Positions 15,673-29,730 of a stretch of 29,730 nt of DNA are shown here, in pieces. The position numbers and the translations under genes were made by a program. Source of the DNA: a virus. Each line of letters opens with the position of its first letter. Positions within the stretch are counted from its first letter, which is position 1. Where the stretch lies: positions 1 to 29,730 of IMG/VR virus record IMGVR_UViG_3300017769_000080. One strand, written 5' to 3'. The notes below the pieces were generated by a model that saw nothing but the letters and a program-made list of their open reading frames with translations, was not told the origin of the DNA and ran no database searches.

Positions 15673-16224
15673 ATGGCAGAACTAACTCAAAATATAAATT
15701 ATTTACAACCGACTAGTTTTAAACTGTCGATAGATAGAACAAATTATCCTAATTTAGAATTCTTTGTTCAGAACTTTACGCATCCTGGTCTTATGATGCC
15801 AGCGTCTGAAATGCCTATACGAAGATTACAATCTATCCCATATCCTGGTGAATCATTAACAATTAATGAATTATCAGCAACTATCCTATTAGATGAAGAT
15901 ATGGAAAGTTATTCTGAAATGTATAACTGGATTCGTAGAATACAGGTTACAGATATGAATGGAAATCAAAACACCCAAAGGGGTAATACAACGAACCCTC
16001 ATGCTGATATCACACTTTCAATATTATCGAGTCATAATAACTTATCAAAGCAAGTGCGATATGTGGATGCAATACCTACGTCTCTAGGAGATATTTCGTT
16101 TGAAGCAACTTCTTCTGGTGCGGAATATATAACTTTTCAGGCAGGGTTCCGATTCAGTTACTTTGAATTGATGAAGGTTTCGACAGCAGGTTCAATATCA
16201 AATTCTTTTACGGTTTCTACATAA
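15673..16224 (+). CDS. Second tail-tube-fold (gp19-like) structural protein
   Basis: 183 aa. Its layout parallels gp19: an N-terminal FKLSIDRTNYPNLEFFVQ strand pair, a P-x-x-MPIRRLQSIPYPGE loop, a DED...MYNWIRRIQV helix in the middle, and a C-terminal strand set ending FQAGFRFSYFELM. Conserved proteins of this type follow gp23 in marine T4-like phages. It probably belongs to the tail-tube or baseplate-tube-initiator family (as gp19, gp48 and gp54 in T4) or to tail completion (gp3 lies near this place in relatives). The exact role is not certain. No ribosome site is visible before the ATG, and a late promoter lies only five bases upstream. Confidence 0.65.
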   Translation: MAELTQNINYLQPTSFKLSIDRTNYPNLEFFVQNFTHPGLMMPASEMPIRRLQSIPYPGESLTINELSATILLDEDMESYSEMYNWIRRIQVTDMNGNQNTQRGNTTNPHADITLSILSSHNNLSKQVRYVDAIPTSLGDISFEATSSGAEYITFQAGFRFSYFELMKVSTAGSISNSFTVST

Positions 16225-22919: not shown

Positions 22920-23129
22920 ATGTCGACAGAAAATCAAGATGAACTAATGAAACTTGCTAATCAGGTTTCACGTTCAACAGTAGCAGTAGTTGATGCTGTT
23001 ACACAACGTGGTGGTTTTAAGGGTGAAGAACTCTCAACCATTGGTACACTTCGTGATCAAGCGATCCAAGTGATTTCCCTTGTGGAAGAAATGCAGCAAG
23101 AAGCAGCAATGGAAGATGACGAAGAATAA
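22920..23129 (+). CDS. Small acidic protein between clamp and clamp loader
   Basis: 69 aa, start ATG at 22920 with GGAG at 22907-22910 inside the end of gp45. A longer version using TTG at 22905 is less likely. Predicted almost all helical (DELMKLANQVSRSTVAVVDAV, then LRDQAIQVISLVEEMQQEA), with an acidic tail EDDEE. No family recognised. The position, with the clamp on one side and the loader on the other, suggests a replisome-associated or RNA polymerase-associated role, by analogy with the small rpbA gene next to 45 in T4, but there is no sequence support for that identity. Confidence 0.7.
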   Translation: MSTENQDELMKLANQVSRSTVAVVDAVTQRGGFKGEELSTIGTLRDQAIQVISLVEEMQQEAAMEDDEE

Positions 23130-23131
23130 AC

Positions 23132-23160
23132 TTTACTTCCCTAAAGATTTATGATATAAT
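23132..23160 (+). promoter_or_regulatory. Sigma70-like promoter for gp44 and downstream genes
   Basis: TTTACT (23132-23137), 17-base spacer, TATAAT (23155-23160) with extended -10 TGA. The -35 hexamer starts two bases after the upstream stop codon. Predicted +1 about 23167; GGAG at 23174-23177 serves the gp44 ATG. Confidence 0.75.
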
Positions 23161-23184
23161 TATGTTTTGTTATGGAGTTTGTGA

Positions 23185-24123
23185 ATGTCTAATGAATTTT
23201 TATGGGTTGAAAAATACCGTCCGCGAAAGATTGCTGATTGTATTCTTCCACCAAAACTGAAAAACACTTTTCAGAAAATTGTTGATGGGGGAGAAGTTCC
23301 AAATATGCTTCTCACTGGATCAGCAGGTCTCGGTAAGACTACTGTAGCACGAGCAATATGCAATGAACTTGATCTCGACTATATTGTCATCAACAGTTCG
23401 GAGGATGGCAATATTGACACTCTCCGTGGTAAGATCAAGCAGTTTGCTAGTACTGTCTCGCTTCAAGGTGGCGTGAAAGTCGTCATCTTGGACGAGGCAG
23501 ATTACTTAAATCCACAATCTACTCAACCAGCACTTCGTGCTTTTATTGAAGAGTTTTCTAACAACTGTAGATTTATCCTTACATGTAATTTCAAAAATCG
23601 TATCATTGAACCACTTCATTCTCGTTGTGGTGTGTACGAGTTCAACAATGGTGATAAGGCAACATTATGCGGTGAGTTTATGACTCGTTGTCAGCAGATC
23701 TTACTTGATGAAGGTATTACCTGCCACAATCAACAAGTGCTTGCTGATATCATTATGAAACACTTTCCTGATTGGAGACGTGTACTTAATGAACTTCAGA
23801 GGTATGGTATCGCCAACGGTTCTATAGATGAAAACATCCTAGTCAATATGGCAGACGGGAACTTCAATAATCTTTTTGATAATTTAAAAAATAAAGATTT
23901 CAAAAAGATGCGTAAATGGGTCGTTGATAATATAGATACTGATGCGAGTGCTATCTTTAGGGGTATGTATGATCGCATGAGTGATAAAATCGCACCACAT
24001 TCTATTCCGCAGTTAGTTTTGATTCTTGCCGATTATCAGTATAAGAATGCCTTTGTTGCTGACCACGAACTGAATGTTGTTGCCTGTATGACGGAGGTAA
24101 TGGCAAATGTCGAATTCAATTAA
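23185..24123 (+). CDS. 44: Clamp-loader large subunit gp44
   Basis: 312 aa (T4 319 aa), AAA+ ATPase that with gp62 opens gp45 and places it on primed DNA. WVEKYRPRKIADCI at 7-20, Walker A GSAGLGKT at 45-52, Walker B VVILDEAD at 99-106, sensor 1 region ILTCNFKNRI at 131-140 and the arginine-finger SRC motif at 146-148 are all present. Its last 17 bases overlap the glutaredoxin gene, which separates it from gp62, its partner gene. Confidence 0.96.
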   Translation: MSNEFLWVEKYRPRKIADCILPPKLKNTFQKIVDGGEVPNMLLTGSAGLGKTTVARAICNELDLDYIVINSSEDGNIDTLRGKIKQFASTVSLQGGVKVVILDEADYLNPQSTQPALRAFIEEFSNNCRFILTCNFKNRIIEPLHSRCGVYEFNNGDKATLCGEFMTRCQQILLDEGITCHNQQVLADIIMKHFPDWRRVLNELQRYGIANGSIDENILVNMADGNFNNLFDNLKNKDFKKMRKWVVDNIDTDASAIFRGMYDRMSDKIAPHSIPQLVLILADYQYKNAFVADHELNVVACMTEVMANVEFN

Positions 24124-24394
24124 ACTATACACTCAGGATAATTGTCCATATTGTGTAATCATGAAAGATAAATTAGATTCTTGGGGAGTAAACTATGAAA
24201 CTGTTAATGTCAGTTATGATAGAGATGCTAAATTATTCTTAAAAGAAAATGGGCATAGGACTGTTCCACAAGTGTATTATGATACTATTCACCTCAACAA
24301 AGTGGACACCGAAGAATTTACTCAGAGATTGATGTTTCTAGAAATGCAACTTCATTGTGATGGTCAGGATTGGGGTTGTGAAAGTTTTGCGTAG
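24107..24394 (+). CDS. Glutaredoxin
   Basis: 95 aa thioredoxin-fold oxidoreductase. Active site CPYC at 13-16, cis-proline segment TVPQVYY at about 52-58 and the helix after the active site (VIMKDKLDSWGVNYE) are typical of class I glutaredoxins. Phage glutaredoxins usually reduce ribonucleotide reductase for dNTP supply. Two additional cysteines near the C-terminus (HCDGQDWGCESFA) are unusual and could bind metal or form a second disulphide. It overlaps gp44 by 17 bases, so expression is tied to the replisome operon. Confidence 0.93.
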   Translation: MSNSIKLYTQDNCPYCVIMKDKLDSWGVNYETVNVSYDRDAKLFLKENGHRTVPQVYYDTIHLNKVDTEEFTQRLMFLEMQLHCDGQDWGCESFA

Positions 24395-24931: not shown

Positions 24932-25328
24932 AATCGTAGAATGGACACCTAATTCTATGCTAGAGATATCTCTCAACGAACCAGATGATTTTCTAAAAGT
25001 TCGTGAGACTTTAACTCGCATTGGTGTTGCATCCCGTAAAGATAAAAAACTATTTCAATCGTGCCATATCTTGCATAAGCAAGGTAGATATTTCATTGTA
25101 CACTTTAAAGAGTTATTTCTACTAGACGGAAAGAAATCTAATCTAGAAGAAAATGATGTTGCACGACGTAATACGATTGCACAACTTATGAGTGATTGGG
25201 GTTTGATTAGTATAGCAACAGAAAATGCTATAGAACCGCTCGCACCCATGAGACAAATAAAAATTATCCCATTCAAAGAAAAGAATGATTGGGAACTTTG
25301 TCCGAAGTATAATATCGGAAGTAAATAA
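24918..25328 (+). CDS. regA: Translational repressor RegA
   Basis: 136 aa (T4 122 aa). RegA binds start regions of many early mRNAs and blocks translation. The segment MLEISLNEPDDFLKVRETLTR from residue 14 matches the T4 start MIEITLKKPEDFLKVKETLTR, followed by SCHILHKQGRYFIVHFKE and a final PKYNIG (T4 PKYTIG). The listed start is GTG at 24918 with AAGAAGG upstream; ATG at 24957 would give a T4-length protein, and either is plausible. The stop touches the next ATG (TAATG). Confidence 0.93.
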   Translation: MEENKIVEWTPNSMLEISLNEPDDFLKVRETLTRIGVASRKDKKLFQSCHILHKQGRYFIVHFKELFLLDGKKSNLEENDVARRNTIAQLMSDWGLISIATENAIEPLAPMRQIKIIPFKEKNDWELCPKYNIGSK

Positions 25329-25759
25329 TGTATAGGGTAACAGGTTATTTCAGCAATACAAAGGTCGTGCAAACATTCTATAATGTTTACGATGCTATTG
25401 AGTTTAAAGATATTGTTGATGCAAATTATCCTATAAAAGTGACATTTGAAAAGGGAGTATATCCTATGAGAACATTTATAGTAAATTCGTGGAATCATGT
25501 TATGAATCATGAATTAAATCCACTTAGACACATTCCAGACTTACAGACACGACATGTTGTCATGCAGTTTCTTGCATGGATGTGGTGTATTATTTTTTCT
25601 ATGAGTCTTGGATCAATTACCGTCTTCGGTGTAAGTGCAGTTGCCCATGCTCTGTTAATTGCAGGCATTGTAGTAACTGTGGGTACATTTGAAACTGCTA
25701 AACGCAAACCACAGTATTTTGGTGGATTGGGTCGTGCCAATGGCGGTGAACACGAATAA
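25328..25759 (+). CDS. Two-span membrane protein with a possible internal start
   Basis: 143 aa. Residues 1-47 are a small soluble region (RVTGYFSNTKVVQTFYNVYDA). From M48 the sequence reads like an independent protein: MRTFIVNSWNHVMNHELNPL, then two hydrophobic helices (about VVMQFLAWMWCIIFSMSL and VSAVAHALLIAGIVVTVGTF) and a short polar tail. GGGAG lies about eight to ten bases before the internal ATG at 25469. The gene may encode two products, or may be a fusion of two small genes. It starts at the regA stop. Function unknown. Confidence 0.7.
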   Translation: MYRVTGYFSNTKVVQTFYNVYDAIEFKDIVDANYPIKVTFEKGVYPMRTFIVNSWNHVMNHELNPLRHIPDLQTRHVVMQFLAWMWCIIFSMSLGSITVFGVSAVAHALLIAGIVVTVGTFETAKRKPQYFGGLGRANGGEHE

Positions 25760-25805: not shown

Positions 25806-25831
25806 AACCTTGCAAGTCATTGGAGGTACAT

Positions 25832-26308
25832 ATGACTGGATTAGTTTACCCACGCAGTGGGTTCATCGGTTTCGACCACATTTTCGATCAGCTTGAAAAC
25901 ATTCACAAGCATGCGAAAGATACCTATCCCCCACACAACGTAGTAAAAGACGATGAGTTTAGATTCTGTCTAGAACTAGCAGTGGCAGGATTCAAACAAG
26001 ATCATATTGACATTGAAGTTAAGGATCATGTCCTTACCATCAAAGGTGACCGTCCTCAGCGTCGGCAACCGGACAAGTATGTTCACAAAGGTATCAGTGC
26101 GAGAAACTGGAAAAAGTCGTTTAGACTGTCGGAATATACCGAAGTAATCGGAGCAGATCTGCAGGACGGAATCTTGACTGTCGACTTAGAAGTCGTCCTT
26201 CCTAAAGAAAAGCAGCCTCGTAAAATCACAATTGGTCAAAACGAGGAAAACGAAAATGACAACAATAGCAATAAACGTGGGTTTTTCAATAGCCCAAGCA
26301 ATCGCTGA
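25832..26308 (+). CDS. Small heat-shock protein Hsp20
   Basis: 158 aa ATP-independent chaperone of the alpha-crystallin family. The N-terminus (GFDHIFDQLENI) resembles IbpA/HspA-type proteins. The alpha-crystallin domain spans about 36-125 with LAVAGF at 49-54, ISARNWKKSFRLS at 88-100 and ADLQDGILTVDL at 108-119. A C-terminal IxI motif (I132-T-I134) that docks between subunits is present, then an Asn/Glu-rich tail. The start ATG 25832 has GGAGG at 25822-25826; a TTG at 25820 is rejected. Hsp20 genes are common in marine T4-like phages, where they may aid folding of virion proteins. First gene of a coupled operon with the pseudoazurin. Confidence 0.94.
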   Translation: MTGLVYPRSGFIGFDHIFDQLENIHKHAKDTYPPHNVVKDDEFRFCLELAVAGFKQDHIDIEVKDHVLTIKGDRPQRRQPDKYVHKGISARNWKKSFRLSEYTEVIGADLQDGILTVDLEVVLPKEKQPRKITIGQNEENENDNNSNKRGFFNSPSNR

Positions 26309-26468
26309 TTTCTTTTCAGGAATCGGTAAGTCAATGGTTATGGCACGTGGTGCGCATGCTAACTATGAAGTTGCCCAGCATCTTCAGCATGAGTATCCCA
26401 ATATGTCACAAGCAGAGATCGCACATATGCTCAACGATCGTTTACGCAAGGAGGTTTATGGTGCTTAA
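26256..26468 (+). CDS. Small protein of unknown function in the hsp20 operon
   Basis: 70 aa. Start ATG 26256 is preceded by GAGG near 26243; the gene overlaps the last 53 bases of hsp20 in another frame. The N-terminal 25 residues are amphipathic to hydrophobic (IAINVGFSIAQAIADFFSGIG), the rest is polar and helical, with NYEVAQHLQHEYPNMSQAEIAHML. No family recognised. The coding overlap at both ends (with hsp20 and with the next ORF) and good ribosome sites argue for a translated gene. Confidence 0.65.
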   Translation: MTTIAINVGFSIAQAIADFFSGIGKSMVMARGAHANYEVAQHLQHEYPNMSQAEIAHMLNDRLRKEVYGA

Positions 26469-26589
26469 TTTTATTAAAAAACTATTTACTCCTTCGGATC
26501 CTGTTCAAAATTACCTAGCAAATGCACATGATGTGTATGATCTAGAAAACCGTTTGAAAGAACTCCGTCGTAAAGGAATCTGGCTATGA
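26458..26589 (+). CDS. 43-residue protein, DUF3563-like
   Basis: 43 aa from ATG 26458 with AAGGAGG at 26448-26454; GTG at 26461 has the better spacing (six bases) and would shorten it by one residue. The sequence NYLANAHDVYDLENRLKELRR resembles the short DUF3563 family of proteobacteria (pattern YL..a.d..DLE.Rlr.L), a similarity judged by eye only. It overlaps the previous gene by 11 bases and the pseudoazurin gene by four (ATGA). Function unknown. Confidence 0.6.
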   Translation: MVLNFIKKLFTPSDPVQNYLANAHDVYDLENRLKELRRKGIWL

Positions 26590-27014
26590 AGTCGCTTGCA
26601 TTCTACTTAGCACTATTCGGCATTGCATTTGTAGTTAGTTCTGCCAATGCAATGACTATCGAAATGCTAAACAAAGACGACGCTGGAAATAAAATGATTT
26701 TCAGTGAAGAATTAGCAAAAGTAGATGTAGGGGAAACGGTTACTTGGTTGCCAACATCAAAGGGACATAATGTCGAAATGATCGCAGGTCCTGATGGTGC
26801 TGAACTTCCTAAGAAATCCAAAAATGGAAAAGAAGTTTCTATCACATTTGAAGTGCCAGGAATCTATTACTATTGGTGCACACCACATAAAGGCATGGGC
26901 ATGATTGGTCTTGTCGTGGTTGGTGATGATACCAGTAATAAAGATGATATTGCCAAAGCAAAGGCACTTGGTAAATCAAAGAAGAAACTGAAAGCATTGC
27001 TTGGAAATCTGTAA
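26586..27014 (+). CDS. Pseudoazurin (periplasmic blue copper protein)
   Basis: 142 aa. A Sec signal peptide is clear: MK, a hydrophobic core to about residue 18, then SSANA and cleavage near 22/23. The mature part matches pseudoazurin along its length: IEMLNKD...GNKMIF near the start, PTSKGHNVE with H61, and YYYWCTPHKGMGMIGLVVVGD with C98, H101 and M106. These are the four type 1 copper ligands with the correct C-x2-H-x4-M spacing. Pseudoazurins carry electrons in the periplasm, classically to nitrite or nitrous oxide reductase. The C-terminal tail is Lys-rich (AKALGKSKKKLKALLGNL), a possible docking surface. The start overlaps the previous stop (ATGA), with AAAGGA at 26572-26577, so it is translated with hsp20. 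A proteobacterial gene type, unusual in a phage. Confidence 0.92.
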   Translation: MKSLAFYLALFGIAFVVSSANAMTIEMLNKDDAGNKMIFSEELAKVDVGETVTWLPTSKGHNVEMIAGPDGAELPKKSKNGKEVSITFEVPGIYYYWCTPHKGMGMIGLVVVGDDTSNKDDIAKAKALGKSKKKLKALLGNL

Positions 27015-27027
27015 GTTGAAGCGTTAA

Positions 27028-27035
27028 ACTAAATA
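27028..27035 (+). promoter_or_regulatory. Possible variant late promoter (ACTAAATA) before the Cys-rich gene
   Basis: ACTAAATA lies just after the pseudoazurin stop and resembles the CCTAAATA at 10259. Predicted start 27038-27041, at the foot of the adjacent hairpin. Low confidence, two mismatches to TATAAATA. Confidence 0.35.
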
Positions 27036-27037
27036 GG

Positions 27038-27059
27038 TGGGAGCAGGTGACTGCTCCCA
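27038..27059 (+). other. 9-bp perfect hairpin with GTGA tetraloop
   Basis: TGGGAGCAG (27038-27046) pairs with CTGCTCCCA (27051-27059) around GTGA, a GNRA-type stable loop. No U-run follows. It may protect the 3' end of the pseudoazurin operon mRNA or the 5' end of the next transcript. Confidence 0.8.
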
Positions 27060-27078: not shown

Positions 27079-27249
27079 ATGATGAGTCAAGAGCGTACAT
27101 GTGGAACTTGTGGACACCGTTGTCATTGTTATCAACCAGAATGTGAAGAATCAATAGGTGTTGGTATGACAGATAAATATCAGCGTTGCGGTTGTAAAAA
27201 CTGTGATTGTAAAAAAGACATACCAAACAGTTTTACGAGAAGGAACTAA
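27079..27249 (+). CDS. Cysteine-rich mini-protein, metallothionein-like
   Basis: 56 aa from ATG 27079 (a second ATG follows at 27082), with a perfect AGGAGG at 27068-27073. Nine cysteines: C8, C11, C15, C17, C22 in CGTCGHRCHCYQPEC, and C37, C39, C42, C44 in CGCKNCDCKK; also H13 and H16. The CxCxxCxC cluster is the spacing seen in metallothioneins; the N-terminal half could equally be a zinc knuckle. There is no signal peptide, so a cytoplasmic metal-binding role is likely. It lies between pseudoazurin and lysozyme. Family not identified; the metal-binding call is an inference from Cys spacing. Confidence 0.75.
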   Translation: MMSQERTCGTCGHRCHCYQPECEESIGVGMTDKYQRCGCKNCDCKKDIPNSFTRRN

Positions 27250-27252
27250 ACT

Positions 27253-27693
27253 ATGAATATAGATGAACTCAGGGAACAATTAAAAATTGATGAAGGAGTT
27301 AAACATGAAATATATCTTGATCATCTCGACTTGCCTACTTTTGGCATCGGTCATCTCATTAGGGATGATGATCCAGAATGGGGCGAACCCGTCGGAACAG
27401 AAATTTCAGAAGAACGAGTCAACGAGTGTTTTGCCAGAGACGTCGAAATCGTGCTAGATGACTGCAGGATTTTGTATCCAGACTTTGATGATTTACCAGA
27501 AGAAGTCCAACAGATTGTAGCGAACATGATGTTTAACATGGGTCGACCTCGCCTTTCTAAATTCAAAGGAATGAAACGTGGAGTAGACGCAAAAGATTGG
27601 AATGCTGCGGCAGATGAAATGGTTGACAGTGCATGGTATCGGCAGGTTACAAATCGTGCTGACCGTCTAGTAGAAAGAATGCGCAATATTTAA
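27253..27693 (+). CDS. e: T4-type endolysin (lysozyme)
   Basis: 146 aa (T4 164 aa), muramidase that breaks peptidoglycan at lysis. The catalytic triad is present with T4 spacing: E14 in IDEG, D23 in IYLDH and T29 in LPTFGIGHLI, against E11, D20 and T26 of T4 lysozyme. Later conserved parts: VANMMFNMGRPRLSKF (T4 LINMVFQMGETGVAGF), KDWNAAADEMVDSAWYRQVTNRADRLV. There is no signal sequence, so a holin must be encoded elsewhere. AAGGA lies ten to twelve bases before the ATG. It starts three bases after the Cys-rich gene, so they share a message. Confidence 0.94.
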   Translation: MNIDELREQLKIDEGVKHEIYLDHLDLPTFGIGHLIRDDDPEWGEPVGTEISEERVNECFARDVEIVLDDCRILYPDFDDLPEEVQQIVANMMFNMGRPRLSKFKGMKRGVDAKDWNAAADEMVDSAWYRQVTNRADRLVERMRNI

Positions 27694-27747: not shown

Positions 27748-29730
27748 ATGTCTTTTTATACCTCAGTTACACGTTTCGGTAATTCTTTCCTCTATCGCGG
27801 ATATGATGATAGAGGAAAGCAAGTATCGAAAAAAGAATACTTCAAACCTAAACTATTTGTTCCATCTAAAGAGGATACAGGTTGGCGTGGACTTGACGGC
27901 ACTATGATTGGTGCTGTTGAGTTTGACGATATGCGTCAAGCAAAAAACTGGATGGAACAATATTCTGATGTGTCCAGTTTTAATATCTATGGGCATACTA
28001 ATTTCACTCACCAGTACATCACATCTAAGTTTCCTAGAGATATAGAATTTGATCGTGATATAATTAATGTCACGACTATCGATATTGAAACTGAATACAA
28101 TGATGGATTTCCTGAACCTAAAAACGCAGATCAAAAAATTACTGCTATCACTATCAAAAATAATATTGATGGTGTGTATCGTGTATTTGGTTATGGTGAT
28201 TATGATGTAGAGAAAGCACTTATCCAACCTGTAAAATATTATAAGTTTGATGACGAGTATCAACTGCTCTTAAAGTTCTTGGACATCTGGCAAGCATATA
28301 TGCCTGACGTGGTTACAGGTTGGAATGTACGTTTCTTTGATATTCCCTATCTTGTCAATCGCGTTGCTAAAATACTTGGTGTAGATCAGGCAAAGAAGTT
28401 CAGTCCTTGGGGTATGATTGATTATCGTGAAGTCACACGTATGAATAAAAAGGATATGACCTATGAGATTCAAGGTGTTGCCACTCTTGACTATCTTGAA
28501 CTGTTTCAAAAATATGGATATGCTTATGGTAAGCAGGAATCATATTCACTGAACCATATCTCGTATGTCGTGCTTGGTGAAAAGAAACTTTCCTATGAAG
28601 AAAGTGGTTCACTCAAAAACCTTTATGTTGATGACTTCCAAAAGTATATTGACTATAACATGAAAGATGTGCAACTCGTCGATCGTATTGAAGATAAGAT
28701 GGGTTTGATTACATTGATCATGACCGTGGCATATAAGGGTGGTGTAAACTACAGAGATGCTTTCGGTGTAACAGGTATATGGGAATCTATCATCTATCGT
28801 AAACTAAATCGTGATAAGATTGCTCCACCTGCAGGTAAGTCTGACTCTGTAAAGGGTGGACAGTTTGCTGGTGGTTATGTTAAAGAACCTATGGTCGGTT
28901 CTCATGATTGGGTTGTTTCGTTTGACTTAAACAGTCTATATCCTAATATCATTGTACAGTGGAATATGTCCCCAGAAACTTTGAAAAGGGAAAACACTAC
29001 AACCAGTGGTGTAGACCATTATCTACAGTTCTTCGATACAGATAGCGATCCTATTCATCCTGTTGCTCGTCAAAAGGATTTGGCAGTTGCGACCAACGGT
29101 TCTACATACAGCAAAGAAAAAGATGGCGTTATCCCTAATCTGATTATCGAATATTATGATGATCGTCGGTCTGCTAAGAACCAAATGCTTGCCGCAGAGC
29201 AGGCATATGAAAAACAAAAGACGTATGAACTAGAGAAAGAAATTAATCGACTACAAAATCAACAGATGGCGATTAAGATTCTTATGAACTCTTTGTATGG
29301 TGCACTTGGTAACCAATATTTTAAATATTTTGATCTACAGATTGCAGAGGGTGTAACTCTTACTGGTCAGATGGTAATTCAGTGGGCAGAACGTGCCATG
29401 AACAAAGCAATGAATGAGGTATTGAAAACCAATGGAAAAGATTACGTTATTGCTATTGATACCGATTCTCTTTATGTTAATTTCGCTCCCCTTGTAAAAC
29501 AACTCAATCCTAAAGACCCTGTGAAGTTTCTTGACAAGATATGTCAGGAACACTTTGAACCTATCATCGGTAATTCATATAAAGATCTGTACAGTAAATT
29601 TAATTGTCACAAACCACGTATGGAAATGGGTCGTGAGGTTATCGCGGATCGCGGTATATGGACTGCAAAAAAACGATATATTTTAAATGTGCATAATAGT
29701 GAAGGTGTGCAGTATGCTGAACCGAAACTC
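27748..29730 (+). CDS. 43: DNA polymerase gp43 (partial, 3' end cut by window)
   Basis: 661 codons are open to the window edge; T4 gp43 is 898 aa, so the thumb region and clamp-binding tail are missing. Family B polymerase with proofreading exonuclease. Exo I D112-I-E114, the same numbers as T4; Exo II around GWNVRFFDIPYL (D198); Exo III YNMKD (Y304, D308); motif A DLNSLYPNII from D393; motif B with K510 and NSLYGALGN from 514; motif C DTDSLYV with D571 and D573; WTAKKRYILNV further on. The start at 27748 gives FYTSVTRFGNSFL, comparable to T4 FYISIETVGNNIV. No Shine-Dalgarno sequence is visible. Not split by an intein or intron in this part. Confidence 0.97.
   Translation, partial: MSFYTSVTRFGNSFLYRGYDDRGKQVSKKEYFKPKLFVPSKEDTGWRGLDGTMIGAVEFDDMRQAKNWMEQYSDVSSFNIYGHTNFTHQYITSKFPRDIEFDRDIINVTTIDIETEYNDGFPEPKNADQKITAITIKNNIDGVYRVFGYGDYDVEKALIQPVKYYKFDDEYQLLLKFLDIWQAYMPDVVTGWNVRFFDIPYLVNRVAKILGVDQAKKFSPWGMIDYREVTRMNKKDMTYEIQGVATLDYLELFQKYGYAYGKQESYSLNHISYVVLGEKKLSYEESGSLKNLYVDDFQKYIDYNMKDVQLVDRIEDKMGLITLIMTVAYKGGVNYRDAFGVTGIWESIIYRKLNRDKIAPPAGKSDSVKGGQFAGGYVKEPMVGSHDWVVSFDLNSLYPNIIVQWNMSPETLKRENTTTSGVDHYLQFFDTDSDPIHPVARQKDLAVATNGSTYSKEKDGVIPNLIIEYYDDRRSAKNQMLAAEQAYEKQKTYELEKEINRLQNQQMAIKILMNSLYGALGNQYFKYFDLQIAEGVTLTGQMVIQWAERAMNKAMNEVLKTNGKDYVIAIDTDSLYVNFAPLVKQLNPKDPVKFLDKICQEHFEPIIGNSYKDLYSKFNCHKPRMEMGREVIADRGIWTAKKRYILNVHNSEGVQYAEPKL

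Follow-up and report, generated by a model that had tools for sequence, protein, structure and literature searches.

A T4-like marine phage carries an intact gene for a pseudoazurin-family blue-copper protein. Pseudoazurin appears to be previously undescribed in phages, and nothing on a phage pseudoazurin was found in full-text searches of an open-licence collection of papers, the surveys of auxiliary metabolic genes consulted there included. The gene, here called PAz, has kept all of its copper ligands, is under strong purifying selection, is predicted to adopt the pseudoazurin fold and lies in phage DNA at a site for which an empty allele exists; its ancestry and genomic context lead to marine Alphaproteobacteria. 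With a probability of roughly 0.6, we take it to be a working periplasmic blue-copper carrier of SAR116-type origin that sustains aerobic respiration during infection.

The PAz gene and its product

The window, i.e., the whole 29.7-kb stretch of DNA analysed (29,730 nucleotides, a virus record), contains the gene at the following position:

26586–27014, plus strand: PAz, pseudoazurin-family cupredoxin (PF00127, TIGR02375, ligand conservation, dN/dS, tree, AlphaFold model)

The reading frame starts with ATG and encodes 142 residues, which matched PF00127 in a Pfam search (E 1.2e-16, 61 bits). Its type 1 copper ligands are H61, C98, H101 and M106, with the C-X2-H-X4-M spacing of pseudoazurins. 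This site, which an earlier note on this DNA had called complete, proved to be unchanged in every one of the 56 distinct viral homologues and was kept in 29–30 of 30 distinct bacterial ones. Many residues distant from the copper are also invariant in phage and bacteria, among them K126, G129, K130 and K132–K134 in the lysine-rich C-terminal tail. The N-terminus reads MKSLAFYLALFGIAFVVSSANA followed by M, and its first 22 residues, judged by eye, resemble a Sec-type signal with a charged part, a hydrophobic part and an A-X-A pattern. Pairwise dN/dS (Nei-Gojobori, pairs with unsaturated dS) was approximately 0.05–0.15, the window and locus L005 copies differing by a dN of 0.040 and a dS of 0.523, and PAz is thus under strong purifying selection. 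Since relatives occur on about 80 viral contigs (80 viral loci were retrieved) and the substitutions are overwhelmingly synonymous, the frame did not arise by chance; it is an intact, strongly conserved and real gene. The earlier note had also taken the product to be a functional periplasmic protein, and the intact ligands, the signal-like N-terminus and the selection suggest that it is.

Family assignment and fold

The top NCBIfam model for PAz was pseudoazurin TIGR02375, at 106 bits over model positions 1–114 of 116, compared with 40 bits for amicyanin and 39 bits for plastocyanin. This score lies 4 bits below the curated equivalog cut-off of 109.85 bits, where most SAR116 homologues also fall just short, and “pseudoazurin-family” or “pseudoazurin-like” is therefore the safe label. 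Pseudoazurins likewise ranked first among the solved structures nearest to PAz by sequence (best 1bqk, E 9e-26). An AlphaFold (AF2) model, built on 39 aligned sequences from the window and the loci (mean pLDDT 90, pTM 0.80), predicts the cupredoxin strands followed by two C-terminal helices, 119–123 and 130–140, as in pseudoazurins. In target-normalised TM-score the model reached 0.86–0.89 with the pseudoazurins 1paz, 2jkw, 1adw and 3tu6, and 0.63–0.75 with solved plastocyanins; a comparison with a viral structure library gave no close equivalent.

In length and tree position PAz departs from plastocyanin, and the cyanophage plastocyanin PetE falls far outside with 100/100 support. PAz is far nearer to the classical pseudoazurins than to PetE, yet forms part of a separate marine branch in a tree of few columns. 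A plastocyanin or amicyanin identity was ruled out by the NCBIfam scores together with the tree, in agreement with the earlier proposal of a pseudoazurin-type protein. For marine blue-copper matches in viromes, plastocyanin should not be the default label.

A gene-exact cassette among phage replication genes

The window encodes T4-like gp17, gp18, gp20, gp23, uvsY, uvsW and gp55, and further gp46/47, gp45, gp44, gp62, regA, hsp20 and gp43. Among sequenced phages C48C1 (OQ984149, Kyanoviridae) comes closest, its terminase being 73% and its major head protein 70% identical; at the same place this phage has hsp20, then two ORFs, then the DNA polymerase, without PAz. The neighbours of PAz in the window are:

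25820–26308, plus strand: Hsp20 small heat-shock protein, the upstream anchor (PF00011, E 7e-19; phrog_432)
26256–26468, plus strand: small ORF between hsp20 and the DUF3563-like ORF (relatives in T4-like loci)
26458–26589, plus strand: DUF3563-like ORF of 43 residues (PF12086, E 5e-5, under the Pfam cut-off), its stop overlapping the PAz start (ATGA)
27015–27032, plus strand: remnant (VEALN-stop) of the MWPYTEEE micro-ORF, its start lost in the window (intact in relatives, e.g., L005, just 3′ of PAz)
27079–27249, plus strand: cysteine-rich ORF of 56 residues, the first gene past a hairpin (reading frame)
27253–27693, plus strand: phage lysozyme or endolysin-like gene (PF00959, phrog_7, phrog_13211)
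27748–29730, plus strand: gp43-like DNA polymerase, the downstream anchor, open at the window end (open frame, synteny, DNA polymerase annotation in C48C1)

The cysteine-rich ORF (CGTCGHRCHCY..., CGCKNCDCKK), which lies past the hairpin and ahead of the lysozyme gene, is shorter than the 60-residue limit of the ORF list and is possibly metal-binding.

The slot regA-hsp20-PAz-lysozyme-gp43 is kept in about 30 of the 80 viral loci, and three other contigs encode PAz at 100% protein identity. By gene content, the remaining viral loci make up several further groups, in some of which phage primase, exonuclease and ribonucleotide reductase families occur. When Gp23 was searched for over 26 PAz contigs it was found in only 2, because the contigs are fragments. 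The earlier note, which regarded PAz as phage-encoded, had itself raised the doubt that a piece of host DNA might have been joined by misassembly. The identical copies on three contigs and the hsp20-PAz-gp43 arrangement in about 30 remove that doubt, and the shared slot together with a matching empty site rules out assembly error and host contamination as the source: PAz is phage DNA, set among DNA-replication genes.

The empty site was reached with the MWPYTEEE micro-ORF, which lies 3′ of PAz in relatives and which, used as a query, led to contigs with the same surroundings and without PAz. In one of these (L302) the DUF3563-like ORF leads directly into the micro-ORF, and the window flanks, joined without PAz, could be aligned to this contig along 1013 bp at 77%; the DUF3563-like ORF is also found directly upstream at the empty-site loci. 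At occupied sites the stop of the upstream gene overlaps the PAz start; at the other end of the gene, in L005 and similar relatives, the stop of PAz and the start of the micro-ORF share bases (TAATG). The empty allele and these start and stop overlaps therefore identify PAz as a gene-exact, exchangeable cassette, an accessory one that is absent from many near relatives. By its origin, fixation and selection, as read from the flanks, the empty site, the tree and dN/dS, PAz is a candidate phage auxiliary metabolic gene. Neither this empty site nor the spread of PAz over several phage groups, nor the sox-operon link treated below, figured in the earlier note.

At least 119 contigs of marine viruses (loci L193–L311) carry the micro-ORF, which encodes 13–20 residues; its start often overlaps the preceding stop. 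It mostly stands behind small ORFs linked to hsp20, and PAz is usually absent, for which reason it was rejected as a PAz partner. At that query length it matched nothing in the phage collection. In other phage groups the gene immediately 3′ of PAz encodes a DoxX-family membrane protein (L044, 8429–8830; L075, 8423–8827; also L020, L034, L054 and L071), and in L044 and L075 its start overlaps the PAz stop. The DoxX family is linked to thiosulfate oxidation.

Putative transcription signals

Two features frame the presumed transcription unit of PAz:

23122–23161, plus strand: promoter-like repeat (TTTACT...TATAAT) ahead of gp44, closest to PAz among the upstream copies and a possible promoter of its unit
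27038–27059, plus strand: hairpin downstream of PAz, a putative transcription unit boundary (−22.3 kcal/mol, z −3.9)

The 40-nt promoter-like repeat (CTTTACT...TATGATATAATA) occurs in five copies, at 16223, 18761, 22172, 23122 and 27704, which precede uvsY, gp55, gp45, gp44 and gp43 and look like a common early or middle promoter. The hairpin is kept in position in relatives with differing stem sequences, and the T-run that follows it there is absent in the window. Because such repeats stand before gp44 and gp43 and a stable hairpin follows PAz, the gene was assigned, by position, to a putative unit starting at gp44. The same presumed unit includes a glutaredoxin gene (24107–24394; PF00462, E 3e-14) between the clamp-loader genes. 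The motif CTAAATA at 27029–27035, just before the hairpin, was not relied on as a late promoter, its 2 matches in the window being below chance.

Ancestry and likely host

The bacterial relatives of PAz belong mostly to SAR116, with some from roseobacters and other marine Alphaproteobacteria; they were retrieved by short peptide patterns, which favours near relatives. In the tree, phage PAz is nested among the marine alphaproteobacterial proteins, the classical denitrifier-type pseudoazurins form a branch of their own (97/92), and a sox-linked SAR116 clade stands beside the viral clade with moderate support (~81/71). A focused tree gave a clade (100/95) of viral sequences and six bacterial ones. 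Since the alignment offers about 145 columns, many forks are unresolved; a single clade of all viral PAz was weakly rejected (AU p 0.028). The source of PAz was apparently a marine alphaproteobacterium, either of the SAR116 type or a close relative.

Three roseobacter sequences (L082–L084, Ascidiaceihabitans / Rhodobacteraceae) lie inside the viral clade with the viral L043 and L073, and the Ascidiaceihabitans copies stand beside L043, a phage with Gp23. This nesting may reflect a transfer from phage to bacterium or, as a recent phage capture, the reverse.

PAz had been put forward as the best host clue in the window, which was too strong, as another gene is at least as good:

25328–25759, plus strand: small membrane protein, a host clue (residues 47–143 are 65–72% identical to a SAR116 protein)

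Over 385 genomes of the class, its best two matches (68% and 65%) were both from the SAR116 order and the next stood at 48%; the phage protein has extra N-terminal residues, 1–46, relative to that of SAR116. The SAR116 homologue adjoins PAz in L093, L097 and L102, and is adjacent or near in four SAR116 genomes. Because this adjacency is limited to a few SAR116 genomes, a functional gene pair was rejected and the protein was kept as a host clue only. No tRNA host clue was found within the window. On account of the PAz ancestry and the membrane protein, SAR116 is the likeliest host group, although not proven: the host call draws on a pair of genes, relatives from roseobacters stand close as well, and some bacterial copies from outside SAR116 nest in the viral clade. 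The broader proposal of a marine heterotroph as host is supported, the nearest bacterial genes being those of marine Alphaproteobacteria, chiefly SAR116.

Respiratory setting and proposed role

To our knowledge, the cases in which phages are known to support electron transport mostly concern photosynthesis. The setting in which PAz might act was surveyed in 81 genomes of the SAR116 order, where TIGR02375 matched in 35 and strongly (E below 1e-26) in 28. The aa3-type CoxB was present in 74 of the 81, and the cbb3 oxidase (ccoN) in two, neither with PAz, so that cbb3 was rejected as a partner. Although cupredoxins are known best from denitrification, aerobic cytochrome c oxidase may also need one in order to function (PMC12423496).

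As we infer it, PAz would be made alongside the early or middle replication genes, then exported and loaded with copper by the host machinery. It would add an electron shuttle running from bc1 and/or, where present, SoxCD to the host aa3-type cytochrome c oxidase, and this extra carrier capacity would benefit the phage by maintaining respiration and ATP supply during its replication. The gene and its apparent origin suggest that such phages sustain aerobic, possibly sulfur-fed, respiration during infection much as cyanophages support photosynthesis.

A narrower and tentative reading is that PAz specifically serves Sox, passing electrons from SoxCD (sulfane/thiosulfate oxidation, SAR116) to the oxidase, and would be a sulfur-oxidation auxiliary gene like soxYZ, soxC and soxD. 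In the SAR116 lineage neighbouring the viral clade, PAz is flanked by soxD and soxB, the order being soxY..soxC-soxD-PAz-soxB (L086, L087, L088, L091, L092), and a flavocytochrome c sulfide dehydrogenase gene adjoins these loci where the contig is long enough; in two further SAR116 genomes PAz and soxY are ~0.7 kb or less apart. SoxY was found in 20 of the 28 strong-PAz genomes versus 15 of the 53 others (Fisher p 3e-4, uncorrected for kinship). The DoxX-family gene directly after PAz in several other phage groups also favours this reading, as do the phage soxC, soxD and soxYZ already described (PMC8190135). Sox pathways have been reported from SAR116 (PMC12262181, PMC8547437), and PAz is not named in those two papers. 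Against the Sox reading, SoxY is missing in 8 of the 28 strong-PAz genomes, possibly through incompleteness, no sox genes were found in the viral PAz loci, and most SAR116 PAz genes are not beside sox. It would be a speculative step further to propose that several large marine phage lineages, infecting SAR116 and related heterotrophs, use a virus-held family of blue copper carriers to divert, during infection, the aerobic electron flow that sulfur feeds (SoxCD to aa3 oxidase) and have returned copies to bacteria; we consider this doubtful.

That PAz is instead a copper or redox buffer of the infected cell, binding released copper or quenching periplasmic oxidants, seems improbable. The complete copper site would be compatible with such a use, the phage also encodes the glutaredoxin, and DoxX sits beside PAz in other groups. 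The conservation far from the ligands, including the invariant residues of the C-terminal tail, suits a docking protein better than a sink, however, and in the loci read the bacterial PAz sits with redox enzymes, not with copper-resistance genes.

Support of denitrification, with PAz as the donor to NirK or NosZ, is very unlikely. Classical pseudoazurins do act in this way, and in S. meliloti the gene is close to nirK and nap, so that the link to denitrification drawn in the earlier note stands for the classical branch, from which the marine branch is separate in the tree. Because NirK above its cut-off was found in 0 of 81 SAR116-order genomes, its weak matches looking like generic multicopper oxidases, and NosZ likewise in 0 of 81, the suggested electron flow to nitrite or N2O was not supported.

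Although PAz is accessory, the reading that it is host DNA carried along or joined on during assembly, without a role for the phage, can be dismissed, given the same slot in about 30 contigs, its presence in several other phage groups, its gene-exact insertion and the strong purifying selection.

Comparison with known systems

Close counterparts of PAz are the SAR116 and other marine alphaproteobacterial proteins (L086–L104), which reach up to 77% identity over the mature protein and have the same length, ligands and tail; theirs are chromosomal genes, in one lineage inside a sox cluster, whereas the phage gene lies inside a replication region. The classical pseudoazurins (A. faecalis 1paz, Achromobacter 1bqk/2jkw, P. 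pantotrophus 1adw, S. meliloti 3tu6) share with PAz the ligand set and its spacing, the barrel, the two C-terminal helices and a signal-like N-terminus, at ~36–46% identity in the structural alignment. PAz differs from them as a member of a marine subfamily, with a shorter loop after GHNVE and a GKSKKKLK tail, and in being phage-borne, on a separate tree branch, with candidate hosts that lack NirK and NosZ.

Among phage genes, the sulfur auxiliary genes soxYZ, soxC, soxD, dsrA and dsrC have been described in a paper in which the words azurin and plastocyanin are absent (PMC8190135). These would belong to the same pathway as PAz if the Sox reading is right, but they encode enzymes or sulfur carriers, unlike the electron carrier PAz. 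The phage-borne blue copper carrier already known is cyanophage plastocyanin PetE (phrog_515). Both it and PAz are type 1 copper carriers of T4-like marine phages and are presumed to maintain host electron flow. PetE differs in its ~30–35% identity, its 107 residues, its lack of C-terminal helices and its very distant position in the tree; it serves photosynthesis from another genome location, whereas PAz belongs to a different branch and a different host.
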